A stretch of 64,000 nucleotides of DNA from Ruminococcus sp. (GTDB lineage: Bacteria; Bacillota; Clostridia; Oscillospirales; Ruminococcaceae). Below are positions 7,777 to 62,856 of this stretch, in pieces. Below the pieces are notes generated by a model. It was not told the origin of the DNA and searched no databases. It worked only from the letters and a program-made list of their open reading frames with translations. Each line of letters begins with the position of its first letter. The first letter of the stretch is position 1. The stretch lies in NCBI GenBank assembly GCA_016288815.1, contig JAEELF010000036.1, forward strand, positions 42,041-106,040, written 5' to 3'. A program made the translations under genes and the position numbers.

Positions 7777-7786
7777 GGTGAGCACA

Positions 7787-8290: not shown

Positions 8291-8339
8291 CGGTGTGATG
8301 CTGCACATCGCATAAAACAAACACAAAGGAGCTGTCTGT

Positions 8340-8903: not shown

Positions 8904-8922
8904 TACTTGAAAGCGTGATAAT

Positions 8923-10682: not shown

Positions 10683-10725
10683 ATTCGGAATGCGGAATCA
10701 GTAATTAGAAAAAGGTCTGATAAAC

Positions 10726-11799: not shown

Positions 11800-11817
11800 A
11801 CGAAAGGAATGATCGTT

Positions 11818-12195
11818 ATGATAAAGATACACACAGAGAAAGCTCCGGCGGCAGTCGGACCGTATTCACAGGCAATGGTAGCGGGCGGAATGGTCTACAC
11901 CTCCGGTCAGATAGCCATTGACCCCGCAACGAACGCTATCGAGGCAAAGGACATCGCCGGACAGACCGAGCAGGTGTGCAGGAACCTCGCGGCAGTCCTC
12001 GAGACCGCGGGCTCCTCGCTCGAAAAGGTCGTGAAGACCACCTGTTTCCTCGCTGATATGGGCGATTTTGCGGCATTCAATGAGGTCTACGCAAAGTATT
12101 TCACCTCCCTCCCGGCACGCAGCTGCGTGGCAGTAAAGGCTCTGCCCAAGAATGCGCTCGTCGAGGTCGAGGTCATCGCAGAGACATCGCTCTGA
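11818..12195 (+). CDS. ridA: RidA family reactive enamine/imine deaminase
   Basis: 125 residues from ATG 11818; AAAGGA is 9 bp upstream, whereas the track's ATG at 11809 abuts it. KAPAAVGPYSQAMVAGGMVYTSGQ and the C-terminal LPARSCVAVKALPKNALVEVEVIA, with its catalytic arginine, are classic RidA/YjgF features. RidA hydrolyses 2-aminoacrylate and related enamines released by PLP enzymes such as threonine dehydratase, protecting branched-chain amino acid synthesis. Its place 18 bp after leuB fits that role. Confidence 0.93.
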   Translation: MIKIHTEKAPAAVGPYSQAMVAGGMVYTSGQIAIDPATNAIEAKDIAGQTEQVCRNLAAVLETAGSSLEKVVKTTCFLADMGDFAAFNEVYAKYFTSLPARSCVAVKALPKNALVEVEVIAETSL

Positions 12196-12209
12196 TAAAG
12201 GAGAATACC

Positions 12210-13136
12210 ATGACAGTACGCGAAATGCAGGACAAGATCCTGCAACTCAAAAAAGAGACCGACACCGCTGTCCTCGCGCACAGCTATCAGGCGCGGGAGA
12301 TAGTTGAGATAGCCGATTTTACGGGCGACAGCTACAAGCTCAGCGTTGACGCGAAGGGCGTGAGCAATAAGAATATCCTGTTCTGCGGGGTACACTTCAT
12401 GGCGGAGACCGCGAAGATGCTCTCCCCCGAGAAGCGCGTTTTCCTCGCGAACCGTCAGGCGGGCTGCCCTATGGCTGAGCAGATGGACAGGGACCTCATC
12501 TCCGCCATTCGCGAGAAGGAGCCTGACCGCACGGTAGTGGCGTACATCAACACCACAGCCTCGCTGAAGACCGTATGTGACGTCTGCGTGACCTCATCGA
12601 GCGCACTGCGGATAGTCAAGGCTATGGACGCGGAGAAGATACTCTTTATCCCCGACTGCAACCTCGGCAGCTGGATAAAGGATCAGTGCCCCGACAAGGA
12701 CATCAAGCTCCTCAGCGGCGGCTGTCCGACCCACGCTGCGATGACTAAGCGTCACGTCGAAAAGGCCCGCGCAGAGCACCTCGGCGCTCTTCTGCTGGTA
12801 CACCCGGAATGTCAGCCGGAGGTAGTGAAGCAGGCGGATTACGTCGGCTCGACGAGCGGTATCATGGACTTTGCGAAGAAGTCCGATGCAAAGGAATTCA
12901 TTATCGGCACGGAGAACTCTATCGCGGAGCATTTGCAGTACGACTGCCCCGGGAAGAAGTTCTACCCGCTGTCGAAGGATCTCGTCTGTCGCAACATGAA
13001 GATAACCACGCTGCCGGACGTTTACGAGTCGCTGCTCGGGATAGAGAACGGCGGGGCGTTCGAGATACTCATGGACGATCAGCTCATCGCCGACGCACGC
13101 CGCTGTATCGACGAAATGATAAGGCTGGGCGGTTGA
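12210..13136 (+). CDS. nadA: quinolinate synthase
   Basis: 308 residues. LAHSYQAREIVEIADFTGDS, the GVHFMAETAKMLSPEK segment, HPECQPEV and GTENSIAEHL are NadA signatures; cysteines for the [4Fe-4S] cluster are present in the expected regions. NadA condenses iminoaspartate with dihydroxyacetone phosphate to quinolinate in NAD synthesis. nadB and nadC, usual partners, are not in the window. It is 14 bp after ridA and 2 bp before hydE, so it seems to be carried as a passenger in the amino acid operon. Confidence 0.95.
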   Translation: MTVREMQDKILQLKKETDTAVLAHSYQAREIVEIADFTGDSYKLSVDAKGVSNKNILFCGVHFMAETAKMLSPEKRVFLANRQAGCPMAEQMDRDLISAIREKEPDRTVVAYINTTASLKTVCDVCVTSSSALRIVKAMDAEKILFIPDCNLGSWIKDQCPDKDIKLLSGGCPTHAAMTKRHVEKARAEHLGALLLVHPECQPEVVKQADYVGSTSGIMDFAKKSDAKEFIIGTENSIAEHLQYDCPGKKFYPLSKDLVCRNMKITTLPDVYESLLGIENGGAFEILMDDQLIADARRCIDEMIRLGG

Positions 13137-13138
13137 GC

Positions 13139-14200
13139 ATGAACGACATCATCGAAAAGCTGTACCTCACCTCCGACCTCACCGACGAGGAGCTGCGTGC
13201 GCTCATCACGGACGAGTCCCCGGAGACTGCCGAGCTCCTGCGCAGAAGAGCCGACGAGGTGCGCCGGCGTGAGTACGGGGAAAAGGTCTTCCTGCGCGGA
13301 CTTATCGAGATCTCCTCCTATTGCAGGAACGACTGTCTGTACTGCGGGATACGCCGCAGCAGCCGCGACGCCGAGCGCTACCGCCTGAGCCGTGAGGACA
13401 TTCTCGCGTGCTGCGAAAACGGCTACGAGCTGGGCTTCCGGACGTTCGTCATGCAGGGCGGCGAGGACCCGCACTTCACCGACGACGTGATGTGCGGCAT
13501 AGTCTCCGAGATACGCGGAAAATACCCCGACTGCGCCATTACGCTCTCCCTCGGAGAGCGCTCGCATGAGAGCTACAAGCGCCTTAAGGACGCTGGCGCG
13601 GACAGATACCTCCTGCGCCACGAGGCTGCGAGCCCGGAGCTCTATGCAAAGCTCCACCCGGCTGAGCTGAGTCTCGAAAACCGCAAGAGATGCCTGTCCG
13701 ACCTGAAGTCGCTCGGATACCAGGTCGGGGCTGGATTCATGGTAGGAGCGCCGTTCCAGACAGTGGACGACCTCATCGCGGATCTGCGCTTTTTGCAGGA
13801 GCTCCGCCCGCAGATGATAGGCATAGGACCATTCATACCCCACCACAGCACACCGTTTTCCGGCGAAAAACCGGGGACTCTCGCCCTCACGCTGCGGCTG
13901 CTCGGGATACTGCGTCTGATGTTCCCGAAGGTGCTGCTCCCCGCGACGACCGCCCTCGGGACTATCGCTCCGAACGGCAGGGAGCTGGGGCTGCAAACGG
14001 GCTGCAACGTCGTGATGCCGAATCTCTCCCCGGTGAGAGTGCGGAAAAAGTACGATCTCTACGACAACAAGATTTGCACAGGCGAGGAAGCGGCTGAGTG
14101 CCGCGGCTGCCTGCAAAGACGAATAGAAGCTGCGGGATATACCGTCGCGTGCGAGCGCGGTGACTGCGCGGACTTTGATACACAAGGAGAATTAAAATGA
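13139..14200 (+). CDS. hydE: [FeFe]-hydrogenase maturation radical SAM protein HydE
   Basis: 353 residues from ATG 13139, two bases after the nadA stop; the track start at 12809 lies far inside nadA and is rejected. IEISSYCRNDCLYCGIRRS contains the radical-SAM CxxxCxxC cluster motif, MQGGEDPHF and IGPFIPHHSTPF are typical of HydE/BioB-like enzymes. HydE acts on cysteine-derived intermediates in building the H-cluster of [FeFe]-hydrogenase. Neither hydF, hydG nor a hydrogenase gene is nearby. Its stop overlaps the next gene by 4 bp. PylB is a close relative; the length and HSTPF segment favour HydE. Confidence 0.88.
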   Translation: MNDIIEKLYLTSDLTDEELRALITDESPETAELLRRRADEVRRREYGEKVFLRGLIEISSYCRNDCLYCGIRRSSRDAERYRLSREDILACCENGYELGFRTFVMQGGEDPHFTDDVMCGIVSEIRGKYPDCAITLSLGERSHESYKRLKDAGADRYLLRHEAASPELYAKLHPAELSLENRKRCLSDLKSLGYQVGAGFMVGAPFQTVDDLIADLRFLQELRPQMIGIGPFIPHHSTPFSGEKPGTLALTLRLLGILRLMFPKVLLPATTALGTIAPNGRELGLQTGCNVVMPNLSPVRVRKKYDLYDNKICTGEEAAECRGCLQRRIEAAGYTVACERGDCADFDTQGELK

Positions 14201-15135
14201 GAGTAAGATTCCACCTCCCCGATTTTTCGGGACATTTCAAGCTCAACCTTATGATGGCGGAAATGCTGAAGAACCGCCCCGACTTCTTCCGCGAGGGCGT
14301 GGAGATAGCCTCCGTCTACGGCGTATTCCCGCCGTGTCTCTGGAACGGCGGCAGACCGCAGGGCGGCTTCTACGACAAGACCTTCATCAAGGGCGCTATC
14401 AAGGCGTTCAACGACCGCGGGATACCGCTCCGCTTCACGTTCACCAACCCCGTCCTCGAGAAGGAGCATCTCTCCGACGAGCGCTGCAACATGATACTCA
14501 ACCTCGCGAACAACGGTCTGAACGAAGCTATCGTGGTGTCGCCGGTGCTCGAGGACTATATCCGCAAGAACTATCCCAAGTACAAGCTCACCAGCTCGAC
14601 CTGCAAGCGCCTTGACGACGCTGAGCGCCTTACCGCCGAGCTCGAGAAGGACTACCACATCGTCGTGGTCGATTACGACCTCAACAATAAGTTCGACATA
14701 CTCGAAAAGCTCCCGCGCAAGAAGGACTGCGAGTTCCTCGCGAATGCCTGCTGTGAGCCGGGCTGCAAGGTCCGCGCAGAGCATTACCGCTCCATCGGCT
14801 ACCAGCAGATAGCCTACTGCGAGCACATAAAGAAGCACCCCGGTCAGCCCTTCGACCTGCCCAAGTACGACCCCAAGGGCTTCTACAAGTGCCAGTACGG
14901 TCAGCGCGGTATCTTCGAGATAAAGGGTCTCAGCACCCACATCTCCCCCGACGATATCTGGGAGAAGTACGTCCCCATGGGCTTCGAGCAGTTCAAGATA
15001 GAGGGCAGGACGGCGAACACCCTCAACGTCCTCGAGACCTATATGTACTACATGGTGAAGCCCGAATGCCGCGACGAGGCGCGCTTTACGATACTCCGCT
15101 CCCTCGAGAAGACCGGCTCGCTGATCTTCAGATAA
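14197..15135 (+). CDS. unknown protein, possible distant U32/UbiU-type TIM-barrel protein (paralog 1)
   Basis: 312 residues; I do not recognise it as a named family. The layout recalls peptidase-U32-type proteins: NGLNEAIVVSPVLEDYIRKN followed by LTSSTCKRL (compare the strand-and-HAST segment of U32), then LPRKKDC, NACCEPGC, and FEIKG...GFEQFKIEGRT, where FKIEGR is a strong U32 hallmark. Cysteines in STC, ACCEPGC, YKCQY and PEC could hold an iron-sulfur cluster, as in UbiU/UbiV. ATGA overlap with hydE; the paralog follows 12 bp later. Function unknown; the U32 link is inference. Confidence 0.75.
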   Translation: MRVRFHLPDFSGHFKLNLMMAEMLKNRPDFFREGVEIASVYGVFPPCLWNGGRPQGGFYDKTFIKGAIKAFNDRGIPLRFTFTNPVLEKEHLSDERCNMILNLANNGLNEAIVVSPVLEDYIRKNYPKYKLTSSTCKRLDDAERLTAELEKDYHIVVVDYDLNNKFDILEKLPRKKDCEFLANACCEPGCKVRAEHYRSIGYQQIAYCEHIKKHPGQPFDLPKYDPKGFYKCQYGQRGIFEIKGLSTHISPDDIWEKYVPMGFEQFKIEGRTANTLNVLETYMYYMVKPECRDEARFTILRSLEKTGSLIFR

Positions 15136-44150: not shown

Positions 44151-44290
44151 AGGTGTCAAGTATCAGGTTTCAGGTCTTAGGTGTAGGGGTCGATGCCTAC
44201 ATCGACCCGCTATTTCTGTGCGGGACCAATTGGCGGGCGGGCGCCGGGGCGACGCCCCTACACCCTGACACCTGACCCCTGTTACCTAAA
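44151..44290. repeat. intergenic repeat family 2, copy 1 (TCAGGTG-rich)
   Basis: Left arm AGGTGTCAAGTATCAGGTTTCAGG is built of degenerate 7-8 nt units (TCAGGTN). Right arm CCTGACACCTGACCCCTGTTACCTA is its inverted counterpart. Between them is GGGTCGATGCCTACATCGACCC. Related copies lie at 50399-50460 and 62770-62856, always next to a terminator. Confidence 0.82.
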
Positions 44291-48112: not shown

Positions 48113-48185
48113 GGATTTTTGTTATATAATCTGCATTTCCCTGCGCGGGAGCCCTCTCCGCAGGCGGGGACAGGCTTCTCCGCGC

Positions 48186-48214
48186 TTGACATCAGGCAGC
48201 TTTTTTGTTATAAT
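48186..48214 (+). promoter_or_regulatory. sigma-A promoter for the Nat-type ABC exporter
   Basis: TTGACA, 17-bp spacer, TATAAT: perfect consensus. Confidence 0.92.
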
Positions 48215-48286
48215 GGAAATGCGGATTTTTTAGGGATTTCCGCACAATACATCGAGCAGAAAGCTCACAGGAAAGGGGTAAACACC

Positions 48287-49027
48287 TTGGAAAACGTTCT
48301 TGAAGTCAAGGGGCTGTCAAAGCAGTACGCAAAAGTGCTCGCGGCAGACCACGTCTCCTTTGAGATCGGCAAGGGCGAGATCTTCGCTCTCATCGGTCCG
48401 AACGGAGCCGGAAAAACTACTACCATCCGCATGATATCCACTCTTCTCACTCCTACCGACGGCGACGCGGTGGTCGGCGGATTCAGCGTCGTAAAGCAGC
48501 CTGATAAGGTCCGCGAATGTATAACCTACCTCCCTGACGAGGCTGGCGCTTACAAGACCATGAAGGGCATAAACTACCTCAAGTTCATGGCGGGGCTCTT
48601 CACGACTGACCCGCAGAAGGTAGTCGCTTATGTTGAAAAAGCCAAGTCGATATGCGGCCTGGGCGACCGTCTCAACGACAAGATAGGCACCTACAGCCGC
48701 GGCATGATACGCAAGCTGCTCCTCGCACGCTCCGTAATGACACAGCCGCAGCTCGCTATCCTCGATGAGCCGACCAGCGGACTTGACGTCCTCAATGCGA
48801 TAGATATCCGCAAGACCATAAAGAAGCTCGCGAAGGAGGAGGGAATGTCCTTCCTGCTTTCGTCACACAATATGCTCGAGATAGAGTTCGTCTCCGACAG
48901 AGTGGGCATAATCTCCAAGGGACACCTCATGGTGACAGGTACTACTCAGGAGCTCAAGGAGCGCTACAATGCCGCGAACCTCGAGGAAGTCTTTGAAAGG
49001 GTGGTGAATGAGAATGAAATTCGTTAA
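48287..49027 (+). CDS. natA: ABC transporter ATP-binding protein, Nat-type
   Basis: 246 residues from TTG 48287, with GGAAAGGGG upstream; the track start lies before the promoter and is impossible. Walker A GPNGAGKTTT, signature TYSRGMIRKLLLA (a variant of LSGGQ: YSRGM), Walker B LAILDEPTSGLD and switch His in LLSSHNM. The overlap of 20 bp with the permease gene shows tight coupling. Similar to NatA of the Na+ exporter NatAB, but substrate is not proven. Confidence 0.9.
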   Translation: MENVLEVKGLSKQYAKVLAADHVSFEIGKGEIFALIGPNGAGKTTTIRMISTLLTPTDGDAVVGGFSVVKQPDKVRECITYLPDEAGAYKTMKGINYLKFMAGLFTTDPQKVVAYVEKAKSICGLGDRLNDKIGTYSRGMIRKLLLARSVMTQPQLAILDEPTSGLDVLNAIDIRKTIKKLAKEEGMSFLLSSHNMLEIEFVSDRVGIISKGHLMVTGTTQELKERYNAANLEEVFERVVNENEIR

Positions 49028-50366: not shown

Positions 50367-50374
50367 CAAAAAAA

Positions 50375-50396
50375 GACGGCTTATGCCGTCTTTTTT
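50375..50396 (+). terminator. terminator after the ABC exporter
   Basis: GACGGC-TTAT-GCCGTC followed by six T, preceded by an A-run. Confidence 0.9.
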
Positions 50397-50398
50397 AT

Positions 50399-50460
50399 TA
50401 GGTGTCAGGTGTTAGATATCAGGCTTCAGGTGTCAGGGCACCGCCCCTGCACATTACGCC
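50399..50460. repeat. intergenic repeat family 2, copy 2 (TCAGGTG-rich)
   Basis: AGGTGTCAGGTGTTAGATATCAGGCTTCAGGTGTCAGGG: degenerate TCAGGTN units. The right arm is missing, so this copy is partial. Confidence 0.75.
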
Positions 50461-50514: not shown

Positions 50515-50543
50515 TTGACAATAACAAATAAATTTGTTATACT
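50515..50543 (+). promoter_or_regulatory. sigma-A promoter for the sugar ABC operon
   Basis: TTGACA, 17-bp spacer, TATACT. Confidence 0.88.
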
Positions 50544-50782: not shown

Positions 50783-53728
50783 TTGAAAAGTAAAAGATTT
50801 TACCGTGGTCTCGCATCATGGCTGATGTCTTGCGTGACGGCGTTCAGCGCAGTGTCCGGGGCGATACCGGCGTTCGCTGAGGAGGACTACGCTCCCTCGC
50901 AGGCGACCCTCGCTGCTATGGCTGAGGACTACTACCATATCGACCCCATAGATACGGAGACGCTGTCGTTCAGCGACTACTACGACATCTACTCCGGCGA
51001 GGCGCGCCCCGACGAGGTCATCGAGATACGCGGCGCGAACTTCGCTGACATAAGCATCGGCGAATATGCAGTCGGTGCGTATCAGGACAGCGGCGGCGAT
51101 GTTCTCATCTGGGAGAGCAGCACCGGTGAGGTCAGCTATGACTTCGACGTCTCGCAGACCGGTATCTACTGCGTGAACATGACCTATTTCCCGCTTGAGT
51201 CCAACAGCACGACGATAGAGCTCTCCATGAAGATAGACGGCGTTTCGCCCTACGATACCGCCTCGCGAATCACGCTCAACCGCGTGTGGGTCAACGAGAC
51301 CGATATCTATACCGATTCCCGCGGGAATCAGGTGCGCCCGTCGCAGATACAGCAGGGAATGTGGAAGTCCTGCGACTTCGGCGACGTTGACGGACTTTTC
51401 AGCGAGCCGCTCTTCTTCTACATAGAGTCCGGACACCACACGGTCAGCTTCTCGTCCGAACGTGCACAGCTCGCGATAGAGAGCTTCAAATTCTACGCGC
51501 CCGCCGAGCTCCCCACCTACAGCGAGTACGCAGCGTCAGTCGGCGCGACCGTCAGCATTGGATCCACCCCGTCCAACCTCTTCCGCATAGAGGGCGAGGC
51601 GGCAGCATACAAGTCAGATTCCACCCTTTACCCCACCTACGACAACACCAGCTACCTCGCGTCGCCCTCCGACCCGACAAAGGTAGTCTACAACACCCTC
51701 GGCAGCGGCAACTGGAAAAAGGCGCTCCAGTCCGTAACATGGGTCATCAGCAAGGACGACATCAAGAACGACGGCTGGTACAAGATAGGCATAAAGTCCC
51801 GTCAGGACCAGATGCGCGGTCTCTACTCCAACAGGCGCATCTACATCGACGATCAGGTGCTCTGCGAGGAGCTCGATCAGATCAAGTTCTACTACGACAC
51901 TGACTGGTCAGTGGTCAGCCCGAAGTCAGGCGGGGACTACGTCTACGTCTACCTCACCGCAGACCGTGACCACACCTTCACTATGGAGGCTGTACCCGGC
52001 GAGATAGGAGATTCCCTTCGCAGGCTCGAGGACATCGTCTTCGACCTCAACAACTACTACCGCAAGGTGCTCATGATAACGGGCCCGAACCCCGATCAGT
52101 ATACTGACTACTACGTCCACGAGAAGATACCTGAGCTCGTTGACGAGTTCGGGCGCATATCCGGCGAGCTGAAGTCGATACAGTCCGAGATAGAGGGACT
52201 TTCCGGCTCGGCTGGCTCGGAGGCTTCCTCAATCGAGAACATGACCGTTATCCTCGATAAATGCACCGCAAAGCCCCTCAAGATACCGAACTACCTCTCG
52301 CAGATAAAGGACAGCATAACCGCTCTCTCCGCGTGGATGAGAGACTACCGCGACCAGCCCCTTGAGGTGGACTACATCGAGTTCGCGTCCGCGGACAGGA
52401 GCTTCACGAGCTGCAAGGAAAAGCTCGGCAAGTCGATCAGCTTCGGCGTGAAGGCATTCATCGGCTCCTTCTTCGAGGACTATACCACCCTCTCCGACGT
52501 TACCGGCGAGGATGTCATCAACGTCTGGGTATCGCTCGGACGAGATCAGGCGCAGGTCGTAAAGGAAATGGCTGAGAACGAGTTCATGCAGGAGACCGGC
52601 ATACCGATCTCCGTGAACCTTGTCATTGGAGGCGTGGTCGAGGCTACCCTCGCAGGAAAGGGACCGGACGTCGCGCTCTTCCTCGGAGGAGAATCCCCCG
52701 TCAACCTCGCGGCAAGAGGTCTACTCGTCGATGTATCGCAGTTCAGCGACTACGAACAGGTGACGGGGCGCTTCCAGGAGAACGCCATGACGCCCTACCT
52801 CTACAACGGCGGGGCATACGGTCTGCCGATAAGCCAGACCTTCCCGATGATGTTCTACCGCACGGACGTCCTCACGGAGCTGGGATACTCGTCCCCGCCG
52901 GAGACGTGGGACGACCTCATAGATATGCTCCCGGCGCTCCAGAGGAACTACATGAACGTGGGACTTATCCTCCCGCCGACCAATATCTCCCCCGCGACTG
53001 AGGCGGGACACACCTTCGCCATGCTGCTCCTCCAGAAGGGCGTGAACTACTACAACGCCGGACAGACAGCCTCCACCTTCGATTCTATCGAGGCGGTGCA
53101 GTCCTTCGAGCAGTGGACGGATTTCTACACCGATTACAGCTTCGAGCAGACCTACGATGCATTCAACCGCTTCCGCACGGGCGAATATCCGATAGTCATC
53201 TCGAACTACACGTTCTTCAACCAGCTCGCGGTGGCTTCGCCCGAGATAAAGGGGCTATGGGACTTCTGTCAGGTGCCCGGCACCCTCCGCGGGGACGGCA
53301 CTGTCTCCCACGCAGCCAATTCCACGGGCGCGGGAGCCGTCATCTTCAACAAGGTGAGCAATAAGGAGAACGCATGGGAGTTCATCAAGTGGTTCACCGA
53401 GACCGATACGCAGGTACATTACGGTACCCAGATACAGGGACTCCTCGGCATCATGGGACGCTTCGACACTGCGAACGTCGAGGCGCTCGGACAGCTCTCG
53501 TGGTCGAATGACGAGCTCGCAAGGCTCCGCGACCAGCAGGAGGAGCTCGTTGAGATACCCATTATCCCGTCGTCCTACGCTGTAACACGAAACATCATGA
53601 ACGCTTTCAGAGAGGTCGTCAACGAGGGCGAGAACCCCCGCGATACGCTCGGCTGGTACAACCGCGACATCAACGACGAGATCACCAGAAAGCGCGAGAA
53701 CCTCGGTCTCAGCACCGAGGAAGACTGA
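50783..53728 (+). CDS. extracellular sugar-binding lipid-free protein: N-terminal beta-sandwich domains fused to a family 1 solute-binding domain
   Basis: 981 residues from TTG 50783, after GGTGG. Signal peptide KSKRFYRGLASWLMSC...AIPAFA (cleavage near residue 33, before EED); no lipobox. Two beta-sandwich, carbohydrate-module-like regions follow (about 60-260 and 285-440; VIEIRGANF and FRIEGEAA), then a helical linker (about 450-560), then a solute-binding domain (about 575-981) with NVWVSLGRDQAQVVKEMA, GPDVALFLGG and AYGLPISQTFPMMFYRTDVL. About twice the usual length. Operon head; the two permease pairs follow. Confidence 0.9.
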   Translation: MKSKRFYRGLASWLMSCVTAFSAVSGAIPAFAEEDYAPSQATLAAMAEDYYHIDPIDTETLSFSDYYDIYSGEARPDEVIEIRGANFADISIGEYAVGAYQDSGGDVLIWESSTGEVSYDFDVSQTGIYCVNMTYFPLESNSTTIELSMKIDGVSPYDTASRITLNRVWVNETDIYTDSRGNQVRPSQIQQGMWKSCDFGDVDGLFSEPLFFYIESGHHTVSFSSERAQLAIESFKFYAPAELPTYSEYAASVGATVSIGSTPSNLFRIEGEAAAYKSDSTLYPTYDNTSYLASPSDPTKVVYNTLGSGNWKKALQSVTWVISKDDIKNDGWYKIGIKSRQDQMRGLYSNRRIYIDDQVLCEELDQIKFYYDTDWSVVSPKSGGDYVYVYLTADRDHTFTMEAVPGEIGDSLRRLEDIVFDLNNYYRKVLMITGPNPDQYTDYYVHEKIPELVDEFGRISGELKSIQSEIEGLSGSAGSEASSIENMTVILDKCTAKPLKIPNYLSQIKDSITALSAWMRDYRDQPLEVDYIEFASADRSFTSCKEKLGKSISFGVKAFIGSFFEDYTTLSDVTGEDVINVWVSLGRDQAQVVKEMAENEFMQETGIPISVNLVIGGVVEATLAGKGPDVALFLGGESPVNLAARGLLVDVSQFSDYEQVTGRFQENAMTPYLYNGGAYGLPISQTFPMMFYRTDVLTELGYSSPPETWDDLIDMLPALQRNYMNVGLILPPTNISPATEAGHTFAMLLLQKGVNYYNAGQTASTFDSIEAVQSFEQWTDFYTDYSFEQTYDAFNRFRTGEYPIVISNYTFFNQLAVASPEIKGLWDFCQVPGTLRGDGTVSHAANSTGAGAVIFNKVSNKENAWEFIKWFTETDTQVHYGTQIQGLLGIMGRFDTANVEALGQLSWSNDELARLRDQQEELVEIPIIPSSYAVTRNIMNAFREVVNEGENPRDTLGWYNRDINDEITRKRENLGLSTEED

Positions 53729-53746
53729 CCGGAAGGAGGAATATGT

Positions 53747-54688
53747 TTGGCACAGATCTCTGCTGAGAATATCGGCAAGCGCACCAAGCAGGAGGAACGC
53801 CGCATGATGTGGCGCTCTGTGAAGGCGAACAAAGCCTGCTACCTCATGCTCGCGCCGTTCATGATATTCTTCATCATCTTCACTGTGGTGCCGGTAGTCA
53901 TGTCCCTCCCTATGGGCTTCACCGACTTCAACATGGCACAGGCTCCGAAGTTCATCGGACTGTCCAACTACACCACGCTCTTCCTCTCGGACAAGATATT
54001 CGTCAAGTCTATCCGCGTGACGATAGTCTTCGCGCTGTTCACTGGTCCGATAAGCTATATCCTCTGCTTCCTGCTGGCATGGCTCATCAATGAGCTCCAC
54101 CCGAAGCTCAAGACAGTGTTCACGCTCATATTCTACGCGCCGTCGATGGCTAACGTATACACAGTATGGCAGCTCATCTTCAGCGGCGATATGAACGGCT
54201 ATGTGAACTCCTTCCTCATCAACCTCGGACTCATAAACTCGCCCGTTCAGTGGCTCACCGACGGCAACTACGTCCTCGGCGTCACTATCGTGGTGCAGCT
54301 GTGGATCTCGCTCGGCGCGGGCTTCCTCGCGCTGCGTGCAGGCTTCCAGAACATCGACCGCTCGATGTACGAGGCGGGCGCTATCGAGGGTATAAAGACC
54401 CGCTGGCAGGAGCTCATCTACATCGTTATCCCCTCAATGGGACCGCAGCTCATGTTCGCAGCGGTAATGCAGATAGTAGGCTCCTTCACGGCAGGAACTG
54501 TCGCGCAGAACCTCGTCGGCTTCCCGAGTACTGACTACAAGGCCCACACTATCATGACCCACGCCTTCGACTACGGCTGGGTAAGGTACGAAATGGGCTA
54601 CGCCTCAGCGATATGTATGATACTGTTCGTCGTCATGTACGCCCTGAACAAGCTCATCAGCAAGGTGCTGAGCAAATACATGGATTAA
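53747..54688 (+). CDS. sugar ABC transporter permease (MalF-like), pair 1
   Basis: 313 residues from TTG 53747; AAGGAGG is well placed, and the nearer ATG is out of frame. Six membrane segments and the EAA loop EAGAIEGIKTRWQELIYIVIP, which docks the ATPase, identify a CUT1-family permease. It lies 18 bp after the binding protein gene and forms a pair with the next gene. Confidence 0.93.
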   Translation: MAQISAENIGKRTKQEERRMMWRSVKANKACYLMLAPFMIFFIIFTVVPVVMSLPMGFTDFNMAQAPKFIGLSNYTTLFLSDKIFVKSIRVTIVFALFTGPISYILCFLLAWLINELHPKLKTVFTLIFYAPSMANVYTVWQLIFSGDMNGYVNSFLINLGLINSPVQWLTDGNYVLGVTIVVQLWISLGAGFLALRAGFQNIDRSMYEAGAIEGIKTRWQELIYIVIPSMGPQLMFAAVMQIVGSFTAGTVAQNLVGFPSTDYKAHTIMTHAFDYGWVRYEMGYASAICMILFVVMYALNKLISKVLSKYMD

Positions 54689-54700
54689 GGAGGCGGACAG

Positions 54701-55582
54701 ATGGCAGCAGCGGTAAATACTGCGAAGCTCAAGGCTTCAAACAAGCAGGCAGGCAGAAAGGTCGGCGGCACGGTCGCGATCTTCATCTTCCTCTCCCTTC
54801 TCGGTCTCTTCATGCTTTTCCCGATATACCTCACGGTAGTCATGTCGATAAAGCCGGTGGAGGAGATATTCATCTTCCCGCCGAAGCTCTACGCTATGAG
54901 ACCGACCCTCGACAACTTCAAGGATATGTTCGCGGTCATGCACCAGAACCGCGTCCCCTTCTCGAGATACGTCTTCAACAGTATCTTCGTCACTGTGACG
55001 GTAACCGTCGCGCAGTGCATATTCGCCTCAATGGCGGCTTTCGTGCTCGCGAAATGCCGCTTCCCGGGGAATAAGTTCATCAACGGCATCATCGTCGTAG
55101 CGCTGCTCTACCAGAGCAACGTCATATACATCATGCAGTACATCGTCATGGCGAAGCTGCACATGATCGACACCTACTGGGCGCTGATACTTCCCTCCAT
55201 AGCCTCGCCTATGGGACTCTTCCTCATGAGGCAGTCCATAGGTCAGGTGCCCGACGCCATGATAGAAGCCGCAAAGGTGGATGGCGCGGGGCTGTTCAGG
55301 ATATGCTGGCAGATAGTCATGCCCAACCAGAAGCCTGCCCTGATGACGCTCATCATCTTCGCCTTCCAGGCGGCATGGAACATACAGTCCGGAACGGTCG
55401 TGTTCCAGGAGCAGTACAAGACCCTCACCACGGTCGCTGCACAGGCAGCCTCCGCAGGTCTTGCACGAGCCGGCGTCGCAATGGCGGTATCCGTATTCAC
55501 GCTCGTTCCTCCGATAGTCATATTCATGCTCGCGCAGAGACAGGTCATCGAGACCATGGCTCACTCGGGCATCAAGGACTGA
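54701..55582 (+). CDS. sugar ABC transporter permease (MalG-like), pair 1
   Basis: 293 residues; six membrane segments and EAA loop EAAKVDGAGLFRICWQIVMP typical of MalG-type partners. AAGGAGG precedes the ATG, 12 bp after the first permease. It would form the membrane pore with the preceding protein. No ATPase gene lies in the operon. Confidence 0.93.
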   Translation: MAAAVNTAKLKASNKQAGRKVGGTVAIFIFLSLLGLFMLFPIYLTVVMSIKPVEEIFIFPPKLYAMRPTLDNFKDMFAVMHQNRVPFSRYVFNSIFVTVTVTVAQCIFASMAAFVLAKCRFPGNKFINGIIVVALLYQSNVIYIMQYIVMAKLHMIDTYWALILPSIASPMGLFLMRQSIGQVPDAMIEAAKVDGAGLFRICWQIVMPNQKPALMTLIIFAFQAAWNIQSGTVVFQEQYKTLTTVAAQAASAGLARAGVAMAVSVFTLVPPIVIFMLAQRQVIETMAHSGIKD

Positions 55583-55605
55583 TATGCACAGAAAGGGTGA
55601 GATAA

Positions 55606-57129
55606 GTGAAAAAAAGAAATAAAACGCTTTTGACGCTGTTCGCATCGTGTGTGCTCCTCGGAGGCGGGATAGTATCGTTCGCAGCAAGAGCGGGCGAGCC
55701 CTACGACGTGTACAACTACGACCGCTGGGGCGAGGCGATACCCTCGCAGGCGGGATATATAGCAGACCATGTCGTGTCGGGATACGACCTCGGCGTGGGC
55801 GCGATGAGCGCTCCGAGCGACATCTTCTGCGACCACAACGACATCTTCTACATCTGCGACAGCGGAAATAACCGCATAGTCGCCGCAGATTCCGACCTCA
55901 GCAGCATAGTGAAGGTCTACGACCGCTTCACCATGCCCGACGGCTCAGTGACTACCCTCAATAAGCCAATGGGAGTGTTCGTCTCCGCGGAGAACGGGAA
56001 CATCTACATCGCCGACAGCGAGAACTCGCGCGTGCTCGTCTGCGACACCGACGCGAATGTAGTCATGGAGATAACCCGCCCCGAATCCGACCTCTACAAC
56101 GGTACATTCCTGCCGCAGCGCGTCATCGCGGACAAGGCGGGCAATGTCTACGTCGTGCTGAGAAACATCACCACAGGCGCGGCGATGTTCGACCCAAACG
56201 GCGATTTCACGGGATTTTACGGCGCGAACCGCGTCGAGCCGACCGCTGAGATAGTCGGCAACTACATCAAGAACCTCTTCATGTCCGAGGAGAAAAAGGC
56301 GCGCCGTGCAAGGAACGTCCCCACCGGTATCACCAGCTTTGACATCGACGGCGACTTCATCTTCACCTGTACCTCCTCCTCGACTCAGACTACGGATACG
56401 GTCAAGAAGCTCAACGCTGCCGGAAAGAACATCTTCGCCAGCAAGGAGCTCGCTTTCGGCGACTACACCCCCATGTACGACACCTCCCAGAACAAGGTGC
56501 TCCAGCCTGCTATCTGCGACATCGACATCGCCGACGACGGCAACATCAACTGCCTCGACTATACTACGGGGCGCGTTTTTCAGTACGACAAGGACTGCAA
56601 CCTCCTGTTCATAACAGGGACTATCGCCCGTCAGGTGGGAGGCTTCAGTCAGGTGTCAGCCGTGGAATCGCTCGGCGAGAACCTCTACGTCCTCGACTCG
56701 CAGAAGAACACCATCACAGTATTCGTGGAGACCTCCTTCGGCGAGATAGTCCACGACGCGACGGATAAGTTCAACGCCGGCTACTACGACGAAGCGCTCG
56801 AGCCGTGGTACGAGGTGCTCAAGCGTGACGGAAACTACCGCCGCGCATACATTGGCGTAGCGTCCGCGCTGTACAACCGCGGCGACTACAAGGGCTCGAT
56901 GAAGTACGCGAAGCTCGCGGACGCCCCGAGGATCTACAACAAGGCGTTCGAGGGCTACAGAATGGAATTTCTGAAAGCCAATTTCGGATATATAGCGGCA
57001 GGGCTCGCGGTGCTGATAGTTGGCATAATAGTCCTGAAAAAGAAGCTGAAAAAGCGGAAGCCCGCGGCAGAGACTGCGGCGGCAGCTCCCGCAGCAGAGA
57101 ACGAGGTCAGCGGAAAGGAGGAGGAGTAG
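55606..57129 (+). CDS. membrane-anchored beta-propeller (NHL-like) protein with TPR-like segment
   Basis: 507 residues from GTG 55606, after AAAGGG. Signal peptide (about 1-28, ASCVLLGGGIVSF), NHL-like propeller repeats (about 40-380; PSDIFCDHNDIFYICDSGNNRIVA, GVFVSAENGNIYIADSENSRVLV, AVESLGENLYVLDSQKNTITVF), a TPR-like helical part (about 395-455; FNAGYYDEALEPWYEVLKRDG), one membrane segment (about 466-483) and a basic then Ala/Glu-rich cytoplasmic tail. Probably an extracytoplasmic binding module of the importer; ligand unknown. Confidence 0.87.
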   Translation: MKKRNKTLLTLFASCVLLGGGIVSFAARAGEPYDVYNYDRWGEAIPSQAGYIADHVVSGYDLGVGAMSAPSDIFCDHNDIFYICDSGNNRIVAADSDLSSIVKVYDRFTMPDGSVTTLNKPMGVFVSAENGNIYIADSENSRVLVCDTDANVVMEITRPESDLYNGTFLPQRVIADKAGNVYVVLRNITTGAAMFDPNGDFTGFYGANRVEPTAEIVGNYIKNLFMSEEKKARRARNVPTGITSFDIDGDFIFTCTSSSTQTTDTVKKLNAAGKNIFASKELAFGDYTPMYDTSQNKVLQPAICDIDIADDGNINCLDYTTGRVFQYDKDCNLLFITGTIARQVGGFSQVSAVESLGENLYVLDSQKNTITVFVETSFGEIVHDATDKFNAGYYDEALEPWYEVLKRDGNYRRAYIGVASALYNRGDYKGSMKYAKLADAPRIYNKAFEGYRMEFLKANFGYIAAGLAVLIVGIIVLKKKLKKRKPAAETAAAAPAAENEVSGKEEE

Positions 57130-57133
57130 CCTT

Positions 57134-57763
57134 ATGATGGATCTCACGCAGAAGCAGTGGGTCAAGCACGCTGTGATGCATCCCGTCGAGGGATTTGAGG
57201 ATATGCGCTGGAAGAAGTCCGGCTCGCTGAAAATAGCCTTCGGGATAGTGCTGCTGCTCTTCATCGCAGCCGTTGCGGACGGAAGGATCTACGGCTTCCA
57301 GTTCGGAGTGGCATACGACAAGACCTTCAACATCATACCCTACATCGTCAAGAGCATAGTGGTGTTCGCGGCGTGGGTAGTCGGGAACTGGGCAGTGTGC
57401 ACTCTCCTCGACGGCGAGGGCACGATGAAAAACATCTGCATTTACAGTGCCTACTCCCTGATACCGTACATCGTGCAGATATTCATATGTCTGCTCCTCT
57501 CGCACATACTCGTGCAGGACGAGGCGGTGTTCATACAGGCGGTGCGCATCATCGGCACGGGCTGGACGGCGATACTGCTGTTCTCGGCGATAAAGTCGGT
57601 TCACCAGTATTCGTTCGGCAAGACTGTATTCGCGATAATCCTGACGATAGCGGCAATGTTCATCATGCTCTTCCTGCTGGTGCTGTTCCTGTCGCTCGTT
57701 CAGCAGGTATACATCTTCATTTCGACGATCTACACGGAGATATCCTACCGTGTCAGGGTCTGA
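57134..57763 (+). CDS. YIP1-family integral membrane protein
   Basis: 209 residues, about five membrane segments starting near residue 32 (LKIAFGIVLLLFIAAVADG, IVKSIVVFAAWVVGNWAVCTLL, YSLIPYIVQIFICLLLSHI, ...). The GNWAVCTLLDGEGTMKNICIYSAYSLIPYI stretch fits YIP1 domains. Starts 4 bp after the previous stop; two ATG codons in a row are possible starts. Found in similar positions in sugar ABC operons of Clostridia and Paenibacilli; role unknown. Confidence 0.82.
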   Translation: MMDLTQKQWVKHAVMHPVEGFEDMRWKKSGSLKIAFGIVLLLFIAAVADGRIYGFQFGVAYDKTFNIIPYIVKSIVVFAAWVVGNWAVCTLLDGEGTMKNICIYSAYSLIPYIVQIFICLLLSHILVQDEAVFIQAVRIIGTGWTAILLFSAIKSVHQYSFGKTVFAIILTIAAMFIMLFLLVLFLSLVQQVYIFISTIYTEISYRVRV

Positions 57764-57781
57764 TGAACGGCGGTGATCACT

Positions 57782-60619
57782 ATGAAGAACAAGATCAAAC
57801 GGACGCTCCTGTGTCTGCTTGCCGTGTCAGCAATGACCGTCACCGGGAATATCCATGCAGACGACGACACCGCAGTCACCGCAGAGGAGGTCTCCTCCGA
57901 CGAGACCGCTGAGGACGGCTCCGAGGGCACAGGCGGGCGCGCGAAGCGTAAGGAAGCCGACGAAAAGGCTGATTTCGACGTCGCGCTCGTTGAGAAGTAC
58001 CTGAAAAAAGTCGGCACCGAAGCCGGGCTCGACATCTACTACAAGAGCAAGGACATCGACGACGAGATATGGGACGCAAACGGCGGCAAGCCGGCTAAAA
58101 AGTCCGATTATACCGACGAGCAGAAGGCTCTGGCGGACGAGATAGACGACGTGGGCAAGCTCGGCGAGCTGGTCGCGGTCAACTCTGCGACGGGCTCCCC
58201 TGTGGCTCAGTTCAAGAGCGGAAGCAAGTCCGACGATGGCGTGCTGTACGTCAGCAATGCGGGACGCTACATCGTCACCGTCGATGAGAACTACACCAAG
58301 GTCATCAAGGTGCGGGAGCTCATCTCCTCGCTCGACTGCGAGAACGCCTTCCTCACCGACGAGGGCATGACCCTCGACCTCATGACGAGCGACAATAAAA
58401 AGCTCGACAACAGCTTCACATATTCCGCCGACGAGGACGGCTATGCCGTCTACAAGGCTGACAACGGTGAATTCGCGTGGCTCTCCACGGATAAGAAGCA
58501 CTTCTACGGCGCATTCAGATACGGTGCCGAGGACAGCGACCTCCGTATGCTCGTGGACGACCGCAACGCGATATTCGGTCTCGAGAACAAGGAGACCGGC
58601 TACATCTGGTGGTCTGCACCTCTCGGCGCAACGCAGGATACCGTCGCGACCGACCTCCTCGTGAACGAGCTCCGCTCCTCGAGCGTGCTCAGATACGGTG
58701 TCCCCGCGAGCCGCTCCAATAACAATGTCCTGCGCTCCGGCACCGACGACTGCGTGACCACAGTCTCCGACATAACCAACGGCATACGCATAGTCTACAA
58801 CTACCAGAAGGCGGGCTTCAAGTTCCCGGTGGAATACACCATCGAGGGCGACCACCTCAAGGCGAGCCTCAAGGTCTCGGAGATAGAGGAGACCAATTCC
58901 TCGAACGTCGCGACGGAGCTCACGCTGCTCGGCGGCTTCGGTGCAGCGTCCGATACAGAGGAGGGATACTTTGTTATCCCGGACGGCAGCGGTGCGCTCG
59001 TGAGGTTCAACAACAACCGCACGATGAATACCAACGCCTATGCACAGAGGGTCTACGGCTCGGACGTAACTGTCGTCCCCACGACCAAGGGCGCGGTCAC
59101 GGAGCAGCTCTACCTGCCGTGCTACGGCATAGTCAAGGATGACAACGCAATGCTCGTCGTTGCGTCAGAGGGCGACTCCAACGCAGTGCTCTCGGCTAAG
59201 GTCTCGAAGCAGTCCAACAGCAGCTACAACCTCTGCAACTTCACGTTTATCCTGCGCGGCACGGATACGTTCTATATGTCCGGAAACACCCGCGAGGAGC
59301 TGACGGTCTTCGAGAGCGGCAAGATAAAGTCCGACGACATCGAGCTGCGCTACTATCCTATCGAGAAAGAAGACGCGGACTACGTTGACATTGCCGAGCG
59401 CTACAGACAGTACCTCCTCGACGAAAAGGGAGTGACCGTCAAGGCACAGGCGGACAGCGCCCCGATGTATGTTGACCTCTACGGCGGCGCACAGAAGAAA
59501 AAGCCTATCCTCGGCATACCGGTTACGCTCAAGCAGGCGATAACCAAGTACGGCGAGGCTGAGAAGATACTCACCGACCTCAAGAACGGCGGAGTGGACG
59601 CCATGGTCGTGTCCTACAACAACTGGACGAACGACGGTATCAAGAACAAGGTCGATACCGACGCCAAGCCCTCATGGACACTCGGCGGCAAGGGCGACTT
59701 CAATGAGTTCAGGGACTTCATGTCCTCGAACGGCTATGAGTTCTACCCGACCTCCGACAACCGCGATTTCTACTCCGGCAACGGTTATTTCTCGTTCACG
59801 AGCACGGCTGTGAGAGTATCGGGCTCGTATTCGCGCATAGTCAGCTACGACCGCGCATATGGGATCCCCGACGGCTTCAAGAAGAATATGTCGCTGCTCT
59901 CGCCGAGCTATTTCATGGACGTCATGGGCGACATCGGCAAGAACTACTCCAAGGCAGGTCTGAGCGGAGTTTCGCTCGCGGACCTCACTACATCGCTTTA
60001 CGGCGATTACGGCAAGAAGGACATCTCCCGCGCTGCTGCGATGGATCTTCTGACCAGCGGCTATGAGTCGATAAACAGCAGCCTTTCCGGCGGCATACTC
60101 GCAGACAGCGCAAATGCCTATGTACTGCCGTATGTCAGCCACATCACCAACGTACCGCTCACGTCGAGCCGTTTCGACATCTTCGACGAGGACATACCGT
60201 TCTACCAGATAGTCATGCACGGCATTATCCCGTACTCCACGACAGCGGTGAACGGTGATGCGGATTCCGGCACGCTCCTCCTCATGGCGGCAGCGACCGG
60301 CAGCAACCTCTACTACGACATGATCTACGAGGAGACCAGCACCCTCAAGGACACTGAGTATGACACTCTCTTCTATGCGAATTACGAGCACTGGACCGAC
60401 ACCGCAGCAGCGGAGTACAAGCTGCTCGCACCCATGCTGAAGAGCGTCAGCGGCTGCACTATAACCGGCTACGATACAAAGAACGACGGCAAGCTCATCA
60501 CCACGACCTACTCCGACGGCACAGTCGTGAAGGTAGACCTTGATGAGAGAACGATCGAGTGGGGCGGGAACGTCTATGAGCTCGATAAAATTGCGGAAGA
60601 AGGAGGGATAAGATTCTGA
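57782..60619 (+). CDS. large secreted protein of the DUF5696 type
   Basis: 945 residues from ATG 57782 (the track GTG three codons earlier overlaps the ribosome site). Signal peptide KNKIKRTLLCLLAVSAMTV...HA; acidic linker (about 28-60); then a long beta-rich and TIM-barrel-like protein with IFGLENKETGYIWWSAPLG, YFVIPDGSGALVRFNNN and PMYVDLYGGAQKKKPILG. This matches my memory of DUF5696 proteins, which sit beside sugar ABC transporters and may be surface glycosidase-like. The stop shares one base with the next ATG (TGATG). Confidence 0.84.
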   Translation: MKNKIKRTLLCLLAVSAMTVTGNIHADDDTAVTAEEVSSDETAEDGSEGTGGRAKRKEADEKADFDVALVEKYLKKVGTEAGLDIYYKSKDIDDEIWDANGGKPAKKSDYTDEQKALADEIDDVGKLGELVAVNSATGSPVAQFKSGSKSDDGVLYVSNAGRYIVTVDENYTKVIKVRELISSLDCENAFLTDEGMTLDLMTSDNKKLDNSFTYSADEDGYAVYKADNGEFAWLSTDKKHFYGAFRYGAEDSDLRMLVDDRNAIFGLENKETGYIWWSAPLGATQDTVATDLLVNELRSSSVLRYGVPASRSNNNVLRSGTDDCVTTVSDITNGIRIVYNYQKAGFKFPVEYTIEGDHLKASLKVSEIEETNSSNVATELTLLGGFGAASDTEEGYFVIPDGSGALVRFNNNRTMNTNAYAQRVYGSDVTVVPTTKGAVTEQLYLPCYGIVKDDNAMLVVASEGDSNAVLSAKVSKQSNSSYNLCNFTFILRGTDTFYMSGNTREELTVFESGKIKSDDIELRYYPIEKEDADYVDIAERYRQYLLDEKGVTVKAQADSAPMYVDLYGGAQKKKPILGIPVTLKQAITKYGEAEKILTDLKNGGVDAMVVSYNNWTNDGIKNKVDTDAKPSWTLGGKGDFNEFRDFMSSNGYEFYPTSDNRDFYSGNGYFSFTSTAVRVSGSYSRIVSYDRAYGIPDGFKKNMSLLSPSYFMDVMGDIGKNYSKAGLSGVSLADLTTSLYGDYGKKDISRAAAMDLLTSGYESINSSLSGGILADSANAYVLPYVSHITNVPLTSSRFDIFDEDIPFYQIVMHGIIPYSTTAVNGDADSGTLLLMAAATGSNLYYDMIYEETSTLKDTEYDTLFYANYEHWTDTAAAEYKLLAPMLKSVSGCTITGYDTKNDGKLITTTYSDGTVVKVDLDERTIEWGGNVYELDKIAEEGGIRF

Positions 60620-61674
60620 TGGCTAAGAAAAGACCAGACCCCGAAATAGAAGCCGCCAGGGAGAAGGCTGCGCAGATGAAGGCTGAGATAGGCACAGAGC
60701 TCCCTCCCTTAAAGGCAGGGGATACCCCTTCCGACGAGCCTGTACCGGCTGCCGCAGCGCCCGAAAAGGAGCCAAAGCACAGCAAGCTCCCCTACGAGAA
60801 GCGCAAGGCGCTCTACGGCTACGGCTTCATCGCGCTGTGGATGGTGGGAACGCTCCTGTTCTTCCTGATACCGCTTGTGACCTCGCTGTACTACTCGTTC
60901 TGCGATGTTCAGGTAAACCCCGGCTCGCTCGATACCAAGTGGGTGGGCTTGCAGAAGTACTCCGACGTCCTCACAGTAGACCCCAACTACACCGACTACC
61001 TCGGGGATATGCTCCTCGAGACCCTCTGGAAGACCCCGCTCGTACTGATATTCTCGCTGTTCATAGCGGTTATACTCAACCAGAAGTTCAAGGGCAGAGT
61101 GCTTGCGCGAGCGATATTCTTCCTCCCCGTCATCATCGCCACGGGACCCGTTTACAGGATAATCAACGGCGATATGAGCTCGACCGGAAACACCGGAGCT
61201 GCCCAGTTCTCGACGATGTTCTCGACTGACCTCATCGGCGAGCTGATGAACTTCCTCGGCATATACGGTCTGAGCGATAACATGGGCACGGTCATCTCCA
61301 CAGTCGCCGACAACATCTTCGGTATCGTGTGGAGCTCGGGAATACAGATACTCCTCTTCCTTGCGGCATTGCAGAATATCCCGCCTTCCGCGAGGGAAGC
61401 CGCCCAGATGGAGGGCGCTACTGCCTGGGAGTACTTCTGGAAGATAACCTTCCCGTATGTGAGCCCGTTCATACTCGCGAACCTGATATTCACTGTCATC
61501 GACTCCTTCACGAGCCCGATGAACAGCGTAATGAACCGCATTCTCGACATGAAGAACGACTGGAAGTTCGGAGAGGCGTCAGCAATGGCGTGGATCTACT
61601 TTATCATCGTTCTTGCGGCAATAGGACTCGTCACGGCCATAGTAAATAAGTTTATTTACTATGAGGTGGACTAA
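60619..61674 (+). CDS. sugar ABC transporter permease (MalF-like), pair 2
   Basis: 351 residues. A cytoplasmic N-terminal extension of about 70 residues, charged and Pro/Ala-rich, is unusual. Six membrane segments and EAA loop EAAQMEGATAWEYFWKITFP follow. The ATG overlaps the previous stop by one base. Not closely similar to the first-pair permease by eye, so probably an older second system rather than a recent duplicate. Confidence 0.91.
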   Translation: MAKKRPDPEIEAAREKAAQMKAEIGTELPPLKAGDTPSDEPVPAAAAPEKEPKHSKLPYEKRKALYGYGFIALWMVGTLLFFLIPLVTSLYYSFCDVQVNPGSLDTKWVGLQKYSDVLTVDPNYTDYLGDMLLETLWKTPLVLIFSLFIAVILNQKFKGRVLARAIFFLPVIIATGPVYRIINGDMSSTGNTGAAQFSTMFSTDLIGELMNFLGIYGLSDNMGTVISTVADNIFGIVWSSGIQILLFLAALQNIPPSAREAAQMEGATAWEYFWKITFPYVSPFILANLIFTVIDSFTSPMNSVMNRILDMKNDWKFGEASAMAWIYFIIVLAAIGLVTAIVNKFIYYEVD

Positions 61675-61688
61675 GGAGGTGCGGGAAT

Positions 61689-62735
61689 ATGTCTGAAAAC
61701 ACCTCCATAAACGCTGCGGGCGAGGCTGTAGTCAAGGCTGAGCACGAGATAGGCAGCGGCATGAGCAAAAAGGAAGCCAAGAGGATACGCATGGAGACGA
61801 TGTCGCGGGAGGAATTGGCCTACCTGCGCAGAAAGTCTGTAGCGGAGAAGGTATGGCCGTTCTTCCGCTTCGTGATACTCTTCGGACTCGGCTTCGTCAT
61901 CATGTACCCGCTCATCTACATGGTGAGCTGCACCTTCCGCGAGAGGAGCGACATGAACGACCCCACGGTAATGTGGATACCGCGTCATTACACGCTCAAC
62001 ATCATCAAGGAGACCATACAGGCTATGGACTTCTGGAAGACTCTCCGCACAACGCTGGTGCTGAACATCGGCTGCTCGCTGGTGCAGGTGATATCCTGCG
62101 CGATAACCGGCTACGGCTTTGCAAGATTCAAATTCAAGGGCAAGAATCTGCTCTTCGGCATCGTCATCATGATGATACTCGTCCCCACGCAGGTAATTTC
62201 CCTGCCGTTGTACGTTCAGTTCAGATACTTCGGTATCAGGGGACTGTTCACCGTGAACCTCATCGACAATATGCTGACCATGTATCTCCCCGCGCTTACC
62301 GCGAACGGTATCCGCTCGGGACTTATGATACTGATATTCCGCCAGTTCTTCAAGGGACTCCCGCGCGAGCTCGAGGACGCCGCCTACATCGACGGCTGCG
62401 GGCCGTTCAAGACATTCATCAGGGTAATGGTGCCGAATGCGGCGTCATCGTTCCTGACGGTCTTCCTGTTCTCGGTGGTATGGTACTGGAACGACTACTA
62501 CGTCAGCACGACGTTCTTCACGAACACCAAGACGGTGGCGCTCATGCTGACGAACCTCGACAGCGAGCTGAAGATACGCCTGTTCAACGACCCGACGGTG
62601 CAGATAAGTCCGCGCGAGGAGATAGTCTGGAAGGAAGCCGGCTGTCTGCTGTCGATAGCGCCGATACTGGTGATGTATACCTTCCTGCAAAAGTATTTCA
62701 CTGAGGGTATCGAGCGTTCGGGACTTGTTGCATAA
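61689..62735 (+). CDS. sugar ABC transporter permease (MalG-like), pair 2
   Basis: 348 residues with a charged N-terminal extension of about 55 residues, six membrane segments and EAA loop EDAAYIDGCGPFKTFIRVMVP. AAGGAGGTG precedes the ATG. Last gene of the operon, followed by a terminator. Needs a stand-alone ATPase (MsmK type) from elsewhere in the genome. Confidence 0.92.
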   Translation: MSENTSINAAGEAVVKAEHEIGSGMSKKEAKRIRMETMSREELAYLRRKSVAEKVWPFFRFVILFGLGFVIMYPLIYMVSCTFRERSDMNDPTVMWIPRHYTLNIIKETIQAMDFWKTLRTTLVLNIGCSLVQVISCAITGYGFARFKFKGKNLLFGIVIMMILVPTQVISLPLYVQFRYFGIRGLFTVNLIDNMLTMYLPALTANGIRSGLMILIFRQFFKGLPRELEDAAYIDGCGPFKTFIRVMVPNAASSFLTVFLFSVVWYWNDYYVSTTFFTNTKTVALMLTNLDSELKIRLFNDPTVQISPREEIVWKEAGCLLSIAPILVMYTFLQKYFTEGIERSGLVA

Positions 62736-62740
62736 ACAAA

Positions 62741-62768
62741 AAAGACGACCCGTAGGGCCGTCTTTTTT
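62741..62768 (+). terminator. terminator after the sugar ABC operon
   Basis: GACGACCC-GTA-GGGCCGTC followed by TTTTTT, preceded by A-run. Confidence 0.9.
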
Positions 62769-62769
62769 G

Positions 62770-62856
62770 TCAGGTGTCAGGTTTTAGGTTTCAGGGCGTA
62801 GGGGTCGATGCCTACACGATTTTCCTGACACCTGATCCCTGACCCCTGATACCTAA
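62770..62856. repeat. intergenic repeat family 2, copy 3 (TCAGGTG-rich)
   Basis: CAGGTGTCAGGTTTTAGGTTTCAGGG, then GGGGTCGATGCCTAC, then CCTGACACCTGATCCCTGACCCCTGATACCTA: the same two inverted arms as copy 1 with a shorter middle. Confidence 0.82.

Follow-up and report, generated by a model that had tools for sequence, protein, structure and literature searches.

Carbohydrate importers of the CUT1 class that use an MsmX- or MsmK-type ATPase have permease pairs that lack an ATPase of their own and are driven by one of MalK/UgpC type encoded apart from them, while specificity lies with the binding proteins. Permeases with a shared ATPase are described for the MsmX systems of Bacillus subtilis (PMC5730181, PMC7658222), and in Anaerocellum bescii deletion of the shared msmK blocks oligosaccharide use and a permease pair can be served by more than one binding protein (PMC12838199). 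Here we describe an eight-gene operon at positions 50783-62735 of a 64-kb stretch of DNA (the window, to which all coordinates refer) from a Ruminococcus that belongs to the R. flavefaciens group. The operon resembles such systems, for example the A. bescii cello-oligosaccharide importer Athe_0595-0598, in that its permease pairs come without an ATPase, its binding protein would confer specificity, and the ATPase is probably an unlinked one of MalK/UgpC type; it differs in joining two permease pairs to a conserved propeller-Yip1 unit and a GH129-like DUF5696 protein, and its binding protein is double the normal size, carries two CBM6/CBM35-like domains, and lacks a convincing lipobox. Judging from sequence comparison, we think it rather probable that the operon encodes one conserved CUT1 import system with two ATP-binding cassette (ABC) channels, a shared ATPase, and a surface scaffold.

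A first-pass annotation, made from the letters of the window and their open reading frames, had placed eight genes on one strand between these positions and read them as a sugar importer, perhaps a glycan-capture machine, lacking an ATPase. The genes are there, and their Pfam families agree, weakly so for one permease (P3). All are on the + strand, in the order giant solute-binding protein (SBP), permeases P1 and P2, propeller, Yip1, DUF5696, P3, and P4, with intergenic distances of -1 to 23 bases. A promoter-like site (TTGACA-17-TATACT with an extended -10, 50515-50543, + strand; 11 of 12 consensus matches in a consensus scan only) lies 240 bases 5′ of the first start codon, and an intrinsic terminator (62736-62770, + strand; hairpin -18.2 kcal/mol, z -4.2) directly follows the P4 stop codon; the operon is most simply a single 12 kb transcript.

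Both permease pairs consist of a MalF-like and a MalG-like BPD_transp_1 protein: pair 1 of P1 (MalF/UgpA type, 53747-54688) and P2 (MalG/UgpE type, 54701-55582), and pair 2 of P3 (MalF/UgpA type, 60619-61674) and P4 (MalG/UgpE type, 61689-62735). The match of P3 is weak, at 22.6 bits against a cut-off of 26.4, and rises to 28.1 bits when neighbouring stretches of its frame are included. An EAA-type coupling loop is present in all four, canonical in P2 (EAAKVDGAGLFRICWQIVMP), P3 (EAAQMEGATAWEYFWKITFP), and P4 (DAAYIDGCGPFKTFIRVMVP); the P1 loop has one residue more than the canonical form and keeps this length across the P1 family. As annotated, no importer-type ATPase is found by Pfam among the eight genes, yet the genome encodes one MalK/UgpC-type ATPase elsewhere: against five sugar-type permease pairs, two of them in the operon, there is a single OB_MalK match, which is cut by a contig end and scores best as UgpC. 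Each of 11 congeners tested also has one MalK-type ATPase, standing alone and away from transport genes in the three contexts read (L197, L198, L199). Because there is one MalK/UgpC-type ATPase in this genome and in each of these congeners, we infer a shared-ATPase arrangement, in which the ATPase of the operon is probably the genome's only one of this type, encoded elsewhere. The ABC ATPase gene immediately upstream of the operon (48119-49027) was considered as the missing component and rejected: it is paired with an ABC-2 exporter permease, and the exporter gene ends in its own terminator hairpin (50369-50396, z -6.7), which lies in between.

The giant SBP (50783-53728, 981 residues, TTG start) has a signal peptide. 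The lack of a convincing lipobox, shared by nearly all of its homologues, is unusual among monoderm binding proteins; many homologues have an N-terminal hydrophobic segment instead. The solute-binding domain proper (residues 576-954, 52508-53644) matches Pfam SBP_bac_1/8 at about 1e-24 to 2e-24 over residues 592-886, and its nearest solved structure is the Listeria innocua sugar-binding protein Lin1841 (5ysb, 8e-18, residues 576-954). The likeness to Lin1841 is that of the binding domain; Lin1841 is of ordinary size and is without the two beta domains and helical linker that make up the N-terminal 535 residues of the giant protein. These are, in the structure model, a first beta-sandwich at about residues 80-238 (51020-51496, mean predicted local distance difference test score, pLDDT, 88), a second at about residues 266-404 (51578-51994), and the linker (52004-52351) to the binding-protein domain. 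Both sandwiches have Foldseek matches to CBM6 and CBM35 (up to 2.6e-7), so that the two extra beta domains claimed for this 981-residue protein are real; we assign them a CBM6/CBM35-like fold and predict from the model that they are of carbohydrate-binding type. The window's giant SBP has no Pfam CBM match, and a free-standing 377-residue remote relative, which matches the N-terminal part of the giant SBP, passes the Pfam CBM_35 cut-off (1.4e-7). It is encoded at locus L209 (genome G067, family f18, 6934-14215, - strand), where P1-/P2-like permeases stand next to two UgpC-type ATPases.

Is the operon a conserved unit? We annotated 109 DUF5696 loci in three samples: 51 were mostly from Ruminococcus (the Ruminococcus set), 20 were drawn from its family, and 38 from the phylum at large. 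A neighborhood survey of this kind had been proposed in the first-pass annotation, and it recovers the full order SBP-P1-P2-propeller-Yip1-DUF5696-P3-P4 at 79 of the 109 loci (41/51, 15/20, and 23/38), in about 15 families. The two blocks are swapped at five phylum loci (L146, L151, L154, L155, L163); contig ends were judged to truncate 21 loci, two of which (L138 and L166) look like half-modules and still have about 2-2.7 kb of upstream sequence; and the SBP-P1-P2 block is missing locally at four. DUF5696 occurs in 71 of 71 genomes of the genus, with one copy each bar one that is split by contigs. Over 399 phylum genomes, a full DUF5696 gene was found in 37, all of which have the giant SBP (once only as a contig-end piece); only two further genomes have the giant SBP without DUF5696, on contigs of 3.8 and 4.3 kb that end within P1. 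Three large genomes hold full-length DUF5696 and giant SBP copies at 3:3, 2:2, and 2:2. The window's own DUF5696 protein is 97% identical to that of the nearest named locus and 43-68% identical to those of the others. One locus with a Ruminococcus-type operon (L037, DUF5696 65% identical) comes from a record titled Alistipes sp., an assembly that is probably mis-titled or mis-binned.

The module splits into two halves, one of giant SBP, P1, and P2, the other of propeller/Yip1, DUF5696, P3, and P4, and it is at this joint that the permutation occurs. Pairwise-distance correlations among the genes, from which shared descent was not removed, are 0.79-0.93 and tightest inside each half. Since P1 and P2 (mean identity 51% and 48%) are more conserved than P3, P4, and DUF5696 (39%, 40%, and 28%), and in view of the permutation and the copy ratios, we infer a constant first half and a second half that changes with the substrate. 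A transcript shared by chance between two independent sugar importers of ordinary kind, namely giant-SBP-P1-P2 for one oligosaccharide and, for another, P3-P4 with a small SBP encoded elsewhere in Ruminococcus, with DUF5696 as a surface enzyme, would also account for half-modules that occur apart, for an order permutable as two blocks at the five loci named above, for the small binding protein that accompanies P3-P4 in many relatives, and for binding proteins without nearby permeases in the window's own genome, most clearly on contig C53. We consider this unlikely: the near-perfect co-occurrence of the halves over the 399 genomes and their common order in about 15 families go far beyond expectation for unrelated importers, and an enzymatic DUF5696 conflicts with the loss of its catalytic residues (see below).

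That one binding protein serves four permeases, as annotated, is true in that the giant SBP is the sole one in the operon, but fails as a general rule. Of the 58 loci that do not belong to the Ruminococcus set, 28 have a conventional binding protein (about 430-600 residues, often with a lipobox) on the same strand as the module and no more than 350 bases from it; these second binding proteins (SBP2) are spread over twelve families, and form a set defined by single-linkage clustering of sugar binding proteins, with orthology not proven. In the Ruminococcus set no such neighbor of the module was found. The window's own genome contains eight binding-protein genes by each of two Pfam models, and because the binding protein on C53 has no permease nearby, an unlinked protein such as this one may be the partner of pair 2; it reaches only 28 bits against the small-binding-protein set.

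Several other binding-protein loci deserve mention. The C53 gene encodes a 421-residue sugar-type protein and directly follows a gene for a GGDEF diguanylate cyclase of 522 residues; the two (L190, 1792-4622) look like a binding-protein-fed sensor pair. On contig C2 of the same genome, two large lipoproteins of about 800 residues (L192, 8213-10642 and 12055-14439) lie in a region of binding-protein matches, and no permease was found on that contig. A spoIIIA-like sporulation cluster, read by eye only, adjoins a sugar ABC importer on contig C29 (L195, 2713-7351), in a genus not usually called spore-forming. Two loci of family f31 (L133, L137) have about five tandem binding-protein genes downstream of P4, which suggests that one importer is supplied by binding proteins of several specificities. 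The cello-oligosaccharide locus of A. bescii was rejected as an instance of the same module, its upstream neighbor being a GH5-CBM28 gene. Athe_0085-87 is a transporter without an assigned substrate (PMC8579813); from gene context, it may correspond to the P3-P4-SBP2 part.

The DUF5696 protein (57773-60619, 948 residues; Pfam 2.5e-164) is exported and has a GH129-like fold. A profile of DUF5696 sequences only (A5, 23 sequences) finds GH129 structures and no others in the whole PDB (5e-12 to 3e-9), and the structure model (mean pLDDT 80) matches 5opq at 6e-26 and 5wzq at 7e-21 by Foldseek, followed by GH101, GH36, and GH31. The single sequence or a Ruminococcus-only profile gave chance matches only against the PDB, and a first, wider profile (A4, 3e-64 to GH129) was dropped as homology evidence because it included two GH129/GH101-like sequences, and served for column matching only. 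As judged by these profile comparisons, homology to GH129 is firm. DUF5696 thus resembles the GH129 glycosidases NagBb (5wzn) and ZgGH129 (5opq) in profile homology and fold, but unlike them it is encoded with ABC permeases, has a long N-terminal extension in Ruminococcus, and does not conserve the nucleophile and acid/base positions. Specifically, i) Ser741 (codon 59993-59995) aligns with the nucleophile Asp of NagBb, and all 49 homologues of the Ruminococcus set have S, T, A, or V in this column; ii) Asp778 (codon 60104-60106) aligns with the acid/base Glu, at a column that varies in other homologues; and iii) acids at both columns are found in only 6 of 105 homologues. For the barrel region around the active site the confidence of the model is moderate to low, and the column alignment there depends on the model. 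We take the DUF5696 protein to be a predicted pseudo-glycosidase, its nucleophile missing in the window species.

It is quite improbable, in our estimate, that DUF5696 is instead an active glycosidase that trims chains for both importers with another catalytic pair, such as Asp745 and Asp805. Those residues are well conserved in the barrel part (96/105 and 85/105), the GH129 homology is secure, and the six homologues just mentioned do keep both acids; but neither Asp745 nor Asp805 falls at a usual barrel position by an alignment that here depends on a model of moderate local confidence, and the S, T, A, or V of the nucleophile column is without exception in the Ruminococcus set. Two proteins of 614-631 residues (L021, L022) match both the DUF5696 model and the Glyco_hydro_101 model and retain the two catalytic acids of GH129; they are likely GH129-type enzymes not so named by Pfam. 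We found no papers naming DUF5696 in the open-licence PMC literature.

The propeller gene (55606-57129, 507 residues) encodes a Pfam NHL propeller, a weak TPR segment, and a C-terminal transmembrane helix; the TPR repeats are clearer in relatives. Next to it lies the gene for a Yip1-domain membrane protein (57134-57763, 209 residues; Pfam 2.7e-15). The TPR segment and membrane helix, like the ATPase elsewhere and the second binding protein of relatives, go beyond the first-pass annotation. Propeller and Yip1 are a single polypeptide at 31 of 105 loci, which is good evidence that both act together. Nothing relevant linking Yip1 with sugar ABC transporters or permeases was found in the open-licence PMC literature. 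A propeller-TPR-transmembrane-Yip1 fusion is more like a signalling or assembly membrane protein than a transport part, and one could imagine a glycan sensor and capture device, in which bound polysaccharide is signalled by the binding proteins, the propeller, and Yip1, and transport through one pair is secondary; that the giant SBP is not a lipoprotein in nearly all homologues, and that a LacI-type regulator-like gene adjoins the module at some loci (L140, by eye), would fit. We think this very improbable, since no kinase, cyclase, anti-sigma, or other output domain occurs in the module and the intact coupling loops of four permeases argue for transport.

A single import system remains the reading that we prefer. 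In it, the propeller-TPR-Yip1 unit and the DUF5696 protein would make up a scaffold on the cell surface next to the channels. Glycan chains or oligosaccharides would be held at the membrane by the catalytically dead glycosidase and by the beta domains of the giant SBP, whose binding-protein domain would pass oligosaccharides to pair 1. Pair 2, which in many relatives has a small binding protein of its own, would take the same or related oligosaccharides, and a single MalK/UgpC (MsmX-type) ATPase, encoded elsewhere, would drive both pairs. The four sugar-class permeases, two CBM6/CBM35-like domains, and a partner of glycosidase fold agree with the earlier suggestion of a sugar importer joined to a glycan-capture apparatus. 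As to cargo, the weakest step of the reading, our guess for the genus is plant cell-wall oligosaccharides such as cellodextrins; GH43, GH30, GH10, GH3, GH1, and polysaccharide-lyase-like genes were seen beside the module in other families (by eye, unscored). Four observations weigh against a single system: i) the assignment of pair 1 to the giant SBP and of pair 2 to the scaffold follows from gene order and nothing else; ii) the second half with a small SBP is found apart from giant-SBP-P1-P2 (L136, L139); iii) two families have about twice as many DUF5696 genes as giant SBP genes (11 vs 6 in G122, 11 vs 6 in G100); and iv) no sugar genes adjoin the operon in Ruminococcus. Given the separate half-modules and unequal copies, the halves need not form one fixed complex.

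We wish to separate from this a stronger and more doubtful proposal, that all eight proteins are one stable membrane machine in which a propeller-Yip1 scaffold holds two channels, fed by the giant SBP and a glycan-holding subunit derived from a glycosidase. If true, monoderms would have a counterpart to surface capture of the Sus type. In the Sus-like systems of Bacteroidota, surface glycan-binding proteins are concentrated at an uptake channel, and the operon would be alike in outline; it differs in having ABC permeases instead of a TonB-dependent porin, and no homology was found or is claimed. Pfam detects no TonB-dependent SusC or SusD among the eight genes, although no dedicated TonB-porin/SusD search was run.

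The neighbors of the operon in Ruminococcus are housekeeping genes, and the first gene downstream in the window encodes a pyridoxal phosphate (PLP) enzyme on the opposite strand. The operon had been annotated with one binding protein and no ATPase; in the window, neither a second binding protein nor an importer ATPase lies just outside it, and there is no sign of separate transcription of the halves. Seven-base tandem repeats of GGTGTCA/GGTTTCA type occupy the spacers on both sides (about 50400-50440, 62773-62795, and 62820-62855) and a site near 44150 (44152-44174); the scanned pattern was counted 5 times against 0.03 expected, far above chance.

The components are familiar; what is new is a GH129 fold that seldom keeps an acidic catalytic pair, CBM-like domains on a lipobox-less SBP, and a propeller-Yip1 fusion, and we came upon no account of them as a single system in the open-licence PMC literature. 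The operon gives a testable role to two unassigned families, DUF5696 and bacterial Yip1-propeller proteins, and in it a glycosidase fold seems to have been recruited as a partner for transport. Throughout a genus of rumen fiber degraders the operon is universal and present in one copy, and it holds two-fifths of this genome's sugar permease pairs; if it is the main oligosaccharide importer, it would be a key step of rumen fiber use.

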